Assembly: GCA_944324185.1 (NCBI GenBank)
Contig: CALUVI010000019.1
Coordinates: forward strand, 1-37,442
Direction of reading: 5' to 3'
DNA length: 37,442 nucleotides
Origin: Candidatus Gastranaerophilales bacterium
GTDB taxonomy: Bacteria > Cyanobacteriota > Vampirovibrionia > Gastranaerophilales > Gastranaerophilaceae
Shown one piece after another: positions 9,226 through 27,794 of the stretch. A model generated the notes under the pieces. That model did not search any database, had not been told where the DNA came from, and saw only the letters and a program-made list of their open reading frames with translations. The position numbers were made by a program, and so were the translations under genes. Each line of letters starts with the position of its first letter. The first letter of the stretch is position 1.

Positions 9226-9294
9226 TTTGTAAAGAATTGTAACAATATATCTGTTGTCGTGCAATTTTATATAAGAAATATACTTTATATATAT
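9226..9294 (+). promoter_or_regulatory. Promoter with HLR1-like (RpaB-type) tandem box, drives the 9291-9433 transcript
   Basis: The minus strand at 9226-9243 reads GTTACAAT-TC-TTTACAAA, a perfect match to the cyanobacterial HLR1 consensus (two K-TTACA-W-W octamers separated by 2 nt). TATACT at 9279-9284 lies 35 nt downstream, and ATACTTTATATATAT (9280-9294) is identical over 15 nt to the same region of the promoter at 19835-19849. No good -35 box is seen (TTGTCG at 9254-9259 with 19-nt spacing), as expected for an activator-dependent promoter. Confidence 0.55.
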
Positions 9295-9433
9295 GTAAGT
9301 CAAAAATGACAAACATTAAATAAACACGGAACACATAACACAACCTTTCATACAACCTACACACTAACCTTCTACACATGAGGAATTATTAAAAAAGATT
9401 CCGAACCTTTCCGACAAAGAAAGGTTTTTTTTT
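9291..9433 (+). ncRNA. Candidate small RNA with HLR1-type promoter and intrinsic terminator
   Basis: Bounded by a predicted start at about 9291 and the terminator at 9404-9433, giving about 143 nt. It contains no credible reading frame; the two ATGs open frames of only four or five codons. A long central stretch (about 9330-9378) is rich in A and C and nearly free of G, so it should be unpaired. It contains CCTTTC and CCTTCT, which are complementary to GAAAGG/AGAAGG-type ribosome-binding sites used by genes in this window. This fits a regulatory RNA that covers Shine-Dalgarno sequences. It could instead be only the 3' tail of the dgkA message. Confidence 0.45.
9404..9433 (+). terminator. Intrinsic terminator
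   Basis: Perfect 8-bp stem AACCTTTC (9404-9411) with GAAAGGTT (9419-9426), loop of 7 nt, followed by an uninterrupted T-tract to 9433. It closes the candidate small RNA and any read-through from the pgpH-ybeY-dgkA unit. Confidence 0.9.
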
Positions 9434-9440
9434 GTGGGGG

Positions 9441-19834: not shown

Positions 19835-19902
19835 ATATATATAAAGTATCGAAAATATATCTAATTTCAGGGCTTATTTAAATCGTTACAAAAGTTTACA
19901 CA
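19835..19902 (-). promoter_or_regulatory. HLR1-like box and -10 region before the coiled-coil gene
   Basis: Plus strand 19885-19902 reads GTTACAAA-AG-TTTACACA, one mismatch from the HLR1 consensus. On the minus strand ATACTTTATATATAT (plus positions 19835-19849) lies 35 nt downstream, identical over 15 nt to 9280-9294. The box has the same orientation relative to the gene as at the other three sites. The divergent LuxR-type gene starts about 118 bp to the other side and could also be affected. Confidence 0.5.
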
Positions 19903-23413: not shown

Positions 23414-23431
23414 TTTACAAAATTTTACAAA
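23414..23431 (-). promoter_or_regulatory. HLR1-like box upstream of the 22728-23354 gene
   Basis: Plus strand reads TTTACAAA-AT-TTTACAAA, a perfect match to the HLR1 consensus. It lies 60 bp before the minus-strand ATG in the same orientation as at the other sites. The -10 is less clear here; weak candidates lie 21-36 nt downstream (TATATG, TATGTG). Confidence 0.5.
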
Positions 23432-24168: not shown

Positions 24169-24227
24169 AATATAAAGACGAATTTTTTATTAAATTTGTA
24201 ATCCAAAATTTTACATTTTGTTACAAA
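24169..24227 (-). promoter_or_regulatory. HLR1-like box and -10 before the 23584-24093 gene
   Basis: Plus strand 24210-24227 reads TTTACATT-TT-GTTACAAA, a perfect HLR1 match. On the minus strand TATATT (plus 24169-24174) begins 35 nt downstream, the same offset as TATACT at 9279. The box has the same orientation relative to the minus-strand gene as the other sites. prs lies divergently, starting 98 bp away, and could also respond. Confidence 0.5.
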
Positions 24228-27591: not shown

Positions 27592-27794
27592 TTTTCAGAA
27601 AACCTCTTTTCAATACTACTTTCATATTATACATTAAAAACCTGAAAATTTAAATTTTTGCGCACTGAAACAAATCTATGAACTGAAAGTATGTGAATTG
27701 TACACAATAGCTTAGTTTAAATAATTTTACAAAATTTAATCAAACTTGAAAGTTTGGATATTTTAAGATAAACTTAACACATTAAGGAGGTTTT

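Follow-up and report, generated by a model that had tools for sequence, protein, structure and literature searches.

The Gastranaerophilales are a non-photosynthetic sister lineage of the cyanobacteria. In the alphaproteobacteria, the small RNAs AbcR1 and AbcR2 use unpaired anti-Shine-Dalgarno motifs, and Hfq is involved in their action. These RNAs are twin, similar copies that lie in tandem in some species (PMC3712013). The small RNA PsrR1 is controlled by RpaB through HLR1, acts in trans by pairing with ribosome-binding regions, and forms a feed-forward arrangement with RpaB (PMC13421787, PMC6202907). Yfr1, which occurs in all cyanobacterial lineages, carries ACUCCUCACAC, a motif that is ultraconserved and unpaired, together with a terminator at its 3' end (PMC2190773). 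A 2013 report of RpaB and NblS in the Melainabacteria, which are reported to be non-photosynthetic, remarked that the role of these proteins there must differ from one in photosynthesis (PMC3787301). A literature search found no small RNA described in Gastranaerophilales or Melainabacteria.

The window analyzed here, 37,442 nucleotides (nt) in length, is contig C19 of a 1.97-Mb genome (G000) that is 96.5% complete. At the locus of interest, genes for a 7TM-HD phosphodiesterase, ybeY, and dgkA are followed by the candidate RNA and then by an outer-membrane efflux gene on the opposite strand; dgkA ends about 110 nt before the element and lies on the same strand. The original prediction placed here an HLR1 box, a -10 element, and a terminator around an A/C-rich, almost G-less stretch that has no reading frame and contains CCTTTC and CCTTCT, and each of these components was located, as follows.

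9226 to 9243, minus strand: HLR1 box (RpaB site), KTTACAWWNNKTTACAWW (GTTACAATTCTTTACAAA), an exact match at 16 of 16 positions to KTTACAWW-N2-KTTACAWW
9261 to 9266, plus strand: GCAATT, a conserved -35-like hexamer (G(C/A)AATT in alignments) 13 nt before ATACTTT
9280 to 9299, plus strand: ATACTTTATATATATGTAAG, the promoter core (-10 region) common to the regulon, from genome site counts
9300 to 9342, plus strand: variable, A-rich 5' leader of the putative RNA, from alignments of copies
9343 to 9376, plus strand: core CAACCUUUCAUACAACCUACACACUAACCUUCUACA, which is ultraconserved, unpaired, and free of G and includes three ACC(U) motifs; proposed as the segment that pairs, from conservation and unpaired probability
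9352 to 9371, plus strand: 20-nt signature ACAACCTACACACTAACCTT, from a genus-wide search
9382 to 9402, plus strand: hairpin 1, GGAATT/GATTCC, from the fold and alignments
9403 to 9433, plus strand: intrinsic terminator, whose stem sequence differs among copies while its pairing is kept

The candidate resembles PsrR1 in its control by RpaB through HLR1, its model of action in trans, its pairing to regions of ribosome binding, and its feed-forward logic, all of which are inferred here, but the named targets of PsrR1 are photosynthesis genes. In addition, the HLR1 box of the candidate lies upstream of the promoter, and its candidate targets share that promoter, so that its wiring is unlike that of PsrR1; it is also usually present in two copies. 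With Yfr1 it shares the format of a short RNA in which an unpaired, ultraconserved motif that includes CCU is combined with a 3' terminator, but the Yfr1 core is situated between two stem-loops, whereas the leader here is open and both hairpins are 3'. The two also differ in the motif itself, in the extent of invariance (34 nt versus 11 nt in Yfr1), in copy number (two), and in HLR1 control, and ACUCCUCACAC is absent from positions 9296 to 9434. AbcR1 and AbcR2 are alike in occurring as two similar copies, but their sequence and lineage are unrelated, their transcription is otherwise controlled, and neither Hfq model matches in G000. A search of 4227 Rfam families returned no match to the window at the gathering threshold and nothing relevant to the locus at E ≤ 10, although the presence of a PsrR1 model in this set was unchecked. 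By sequence, the candidate is thus neither PsrR1 nor Yfr1, though alike in the outline of its presumed action, and the proposal of a PsrR1 analogue without homology holds within the reach of such a comparison.

The anatomy of the element is that of a small, noncoding transcript. CCTTTC lies at 9344 to 9349 and CCTTCT at 9368 to 9373, and the sequence 5' of the hairpins averages 42% A, 33% C, 23% T, and 2% G over 113 copies. The terminator comprises a 9-bp stem (GAACCTTTC/GAAAGGTTT, 9403 to 9427) followed by a T run, and it is preceded by hairpin 1, which was absent from the original prediction. In the predicted fold (z = -2.5 against dinucleotide shuffles), the 5' two-thirds are open, pairing is limited to 9382 to 9402 and 9403 to 9427, and the core has a mean unpaired probability of 0.945. 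ORF calling on the region returned none, and relatives are distinguished by a 2-nt indel within it. The start of transcription is unmapped and is inferred to lie at about 9291 to 9300.

The 20-mer signature is present in 64 of the 65 genomes of the genus, usually in two copies, nearly all of which are exact, and its reversed control has almost no matches in the same genomes. Forms with up to three mismatches extend to 173 of 286 genomes and 26 of 50 genera of the order. The usual variant in other genera of the family is ACCTACTACACACTAACCTT, and the family-wide form of the signature is its 3' part, CTACACACTAACCTT; the anatomy of the variant is alike, with an HLR1-like box, GCAATT, TACTTTATNNATATGTAAG, an A/C leader, CTACACACTAACCTT, a ACACRYGAGGAATT hairpin, and a terminator. 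Among 109 distinct copies, per-position identity is 98 to 100% from -9 to +24 around the signature (approximately 9343 to 9376) and about 50% in the leader, and the core is close to invariant across an entire bacterial family. The 5' leader and the terminator stem drift, the latter into many different stems with pairing preserved, and hairpin 1 is compensated in another genus, where GAGAATC/GATTTTC substitutes. A lack of conservation outside the terminator would have refuted the original prediction, and the opposite was found: promoter and core are kept in relatives, and the most conserved part of the unit lies outside the terminator. The reading of positions 9226 to 9433 as a distinct, free-standing small RNA gene is therefore supported insofar as sequence can test it, there being no expression data.

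When 37 relatives were searched at the DNA level, almost every genome of the genus gave strong matches, and elsewhere only the promoter matched. Relatives sharing the RNA are Gastranaerophilales or Melainabacteria metagenome-assembled genomes (MAGs) from rumen, horse, deer, goat, and other guts. The sole database match outside the lineage, in a Clostridia bin (L059), was rejected as a chance match within a coding sequence. One copy was seen in the G000 assembly, its nearest database relative has two (L086 and L113), and several genera carry tandem pairs 230 to 320 nt apart. One set of copies adjoins dgkA/ybeY, mostly convergent with dgkA but codirectional in the window and its nearest relative, and the neighbors of other copies are unrelated, among them genes for an oxidoreductase and a lipoamide-dehydrogenase-like protein. 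This variety of loci and orientations indicates that the unit relocates and persists intact, its own promoter and terminator included.

Several features associate the promoter with RpaB. HLR1 matches with at most one mismatch number 5 in the window, as opposed to 0.35 expected, and no shuffle reached 5. The best HLR1 match in 120 promoters of the small RNA averages 15.2 of 16 positions (12.1 in shuffles), and in 116 of these 120 copies, the start of the box precedes TACTTTAT (the -10 element) by 54 or 55 nt, in a single orientation. It would occupy approximately -65 to -48 if transcription starts at 9291 and -74 to -57 if it starts at 9300; a review gives an identical HLR1 consensus and reports activation from sites located at about -66 to -45 (PMC13421787). 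A single G000 protein, encoded on contig C49, exceeds the cutoff of the RpaB equivalog model (NF045944, NCBIfam; 355.2 bits versus 330), and of the four OmpR-type regulators encoded, L278 is second best against this model. HLR1/RpaB control of the small RNA, as originally inferred, is supported to the extent that such comparisons can test it, with no binding or expression data. Elsewhere in the window, four more HLR1-like boxes occur at 19885 to 19902, 23414 to 23431, 24210 to 24227, and 27716 to 27733; two are exact, and those at 23414 and 24210 sit just upstream of predicted ORFs.

The promoter core itself is recurrent. With up to three mismatches, ATACTTTATATATATGTAAG has 27 sites in the genome and its reversed control has 1, indicating that the element is real and shared rather than a chance AT stretch. 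Six genomes from two other families contain 23 sites for the core and none for reversed controls, and the combination of promoter and HLR1 boxes is present in all six. A standard sigma-70 scan of the window misses the promoter of the small RNA, and for this reason the -10/-35 assignment is left open; an alternative sigma factor may recognize ATACTTTATATATATGTAAG, or an operator may lie within it.

At most promoter sites, the gene that follows encodes a small protein of unknown function. About 20 genes for lineage-specific proteins (L177 to L203), with no or only weak Pfam matches, stand behind the HLR1 promoter, and 89% of the regulon promoters score at least 13 for HLR1, compared with 22% when shuffled. 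As a separate observation, L183 and L201 share the C terminus APKFGLG, and some regulon proteins are Gly-rich. The same promoter also precedes a second CCU-rich noncoding unit, L181 (G000:C60:4926-5031; AATCCCTAAATCCCTTCCTAACTAATTTTCCC plus a terminator), whose core, CCCTTCCTAACTAATTTTCC, is unlike that of the small RNA in the window and which has matches in 14 of the 19 further genomes searched in the genus. In families f6 and f7, differing G-poor, CCU-rich RNAs (L254, L255, and L257 to L262) follow this promoter, and two f7 genomes have a tandem pair of them. Across these CCU-rich RNAs, promoter, composition, and terminator layout recur while the sequences differ, and homology is not shown.

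The target scan covered about 400 kb of G000 stretches, chosen in part on regulon contigs. A gene for a 171-amino-acid protein (G000:C41:10639), which has no convincing Pfam match and has orthologues in the genus only, is among the best candidate targets. Each of its 18 orthologues retains the promoter and has a leader whose end is AGTTAGGTAGGTTYAYTATG or closely resembles it, and most of these leaders contain AAGGTTAG upstream, an element that also occurs in the leaders of L185 and L202 orthologues. Leader elements of the AAGGTTAG type and AGTTAGGTAGGTT are complementary to CUAACCUU and AACCUAC of the core. In G000, AAGGTTA/AGGTTAG is found in 4 of 18 regulon leaders and 5 of 319 other genes (Fisher test, P = 6e-4, with the motif chosen post hoc), and the motif is absent from most regulon leaders, for example, those of 14 L201-type genes. 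Exact 7-mer complements at start regions are more numerous for the core than for 294 of 300 shuffled cores.

A genome-wide duplex-energy scan, in which the gene for the 171-amino-acid protein is unexceptional (z = -1.1), yielded only a weak excess over shuffled cores and, being little better than these, was not used as evidence. The earlier proposal of pairing with ribosome-binding sites remains an inference, with complementary, conserved leaders in one genus and a weak global signal. A search of the family for the promoter plus the AAGGTTAG leader returned three sites in two genomes, all of this genus, and none in other genera, a weak negative because the pattern is too strict for most known orthologues. 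Since these candidate targets are confined to the genus although the core is distributed more widely, a different mechanism or different targets are required to account for the ancestral function. Searches of G000 with two Pfam models of Hfq (PF17209 and PF21979, the latter of which finds Synechococcus elongatus as a control) produced no match, implying a chaperone-free mode or an unknown chaperone. Action by pairing is likely, with base-pairing to ribosome-binding sites inferred on modest support, and the evidence for specific targets, confined to this genus, is suggestive.

We consider it probable that the element specifies a small RNA that RpaB activates and that acts in trans, pairing with ribosome-binding sites through its unpaired CCU motifs, although activation, pairing, and repression are all inferred and expression is untested. 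Under such a scheme, phosphorylated RpaB would activate both the small RNA and a regulon of genes for lineage-specific proteins. The RNA, of 100 to 140 nt, would act in trans and without a recognizable Hfq. Its unpaired ACCUUUC, ACCUAC, and CUAACCUU motifs would pair with leaders that contain GGUU and with ribosome-binding sites, and the covering of these sites would lower the translation of some regulon members. The best candidate targets are the gene for the 171-amino-acid protein and relatives of L185, L202, and L189. Because these candidates belong to the same regulon, the arrangement would constitute an incoherent feed-forward loop, in which RpaB induces both an mRNA and the RNA that damps it.

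Alternatives to this scheme differ in how much of it they preserve. Proximity to dgkA raises the question of a 3' untranslated region, a read-through product, or a cis-acting leader rather than a separate gene, but a conserved promoter and HLR1 box belong to the element itself, in nine relatives the copy beside dgkA is on the opposite strand and points toward that gene, a second copy resides at unrelated loci, and no gene follows the terminator on its strand. Because copies occur in either orientation and also away from dgkA, a dgkA 3' untranslated region or attenuator was rejected, and this reading retains next to no plausibility. Scarcely more credible is a mini-mRNA or small-peptide leader using an ATG such as that in ACACATGAGG: many copies have an ATG at 9378 to 9380 (ATGAGGAATTATTAA), but the frame yields only 3 or 4 codons, no ORF is called, and other genera carry ACACGAGG, which has no ATG. 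Peptide coding was ruled out by this loss of the ATG in whole genera together with the 2-nt indels that the conserved stretch tolerates.

Other alternatives accept the RNA and dispute its partners. That a regulator other than RpaB binds the HLR1-like box seems to us improbable, given that the box agrees with the cyanobacterial RpaB consensus at 15 or 16 of 16 positions and that only one protein surpasses the equivalog cutoff; the presence of four OmpR-type regulators, at least one of which (L278) also scores on the RpaB model, and the fact that RpaB function has never been tested in this lineage keep it under consideration. An invariant core of about 34 nt exceeds the usual pairing seed, which could mean that a genuine RpaB-controlled RNA binds or sequesters a protein, either an unknown RNA chaperone or a translational regulator, with mRNA pairing not its main mode. 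The weak global target enrichment and the lack of a match to either Pfam type of Hfq are compatible with this possibility, as are the two copies per genome, which fit a titrating RNA. It remains an unlikely explanation, however, for a core that is unstructured, C-rich, and G-free like anti-Shine-Dalgarno small RNAs and whose complementary leaders are kept in co-regulated genes. Moreover, other families swap in different CCU-rich cores under the same promoter, a pattern more in keeping with pairing to CCU-complementary sites than with a single, fixed site for a protein.

Pairing by an RpaB-controlled small RNA, the reading that we prefer, also admits a broader and more speculative formulation, which we put forward only as a possibility. 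An entire non-photosynthetic order may have retained the cyanobacterial RpaB/HLR1 switch but rebuilt it around its own regulon of lineage-specific proteins and around multicopy, G-free, CCU-repeat small RNAs, whose cores differ by family under the same promoter and which would silence co-activated mRNAs by anti-Shine-Dalgarno mimicry without Hfq. The promoter described here gives the RpaB of Melainabacteria a concrete, genome-wide candidate target in which the cyanobacterial site is almost unchanged, and the question raised in 2013 becomes testable. The putative small RNA family, ultraconserved, without an Rfam match, and recognizable from its sequence in abundant uncultured gut bacteria, should be easy to seek in existing gut and rumen metatranscriptomes.

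Two minor observations concern noncoding sequence in G000. A purine-rich noncoding unit, L190 (G000:C33:6397 onward; AAGAGAGAGAAAAAGAGAAATTG plus a terminator), follows the same promoter and could be a small RNA or a sponge. Additionally, a G-run and the intergenic sequence gtaaat...tcg(g/t)g...gtgtcattg lie 3' of both small RNA terminators in this genome (9435 to 9660 in the window and downstream of L181), and this intergenic sequence resembles a dispersed repeat.
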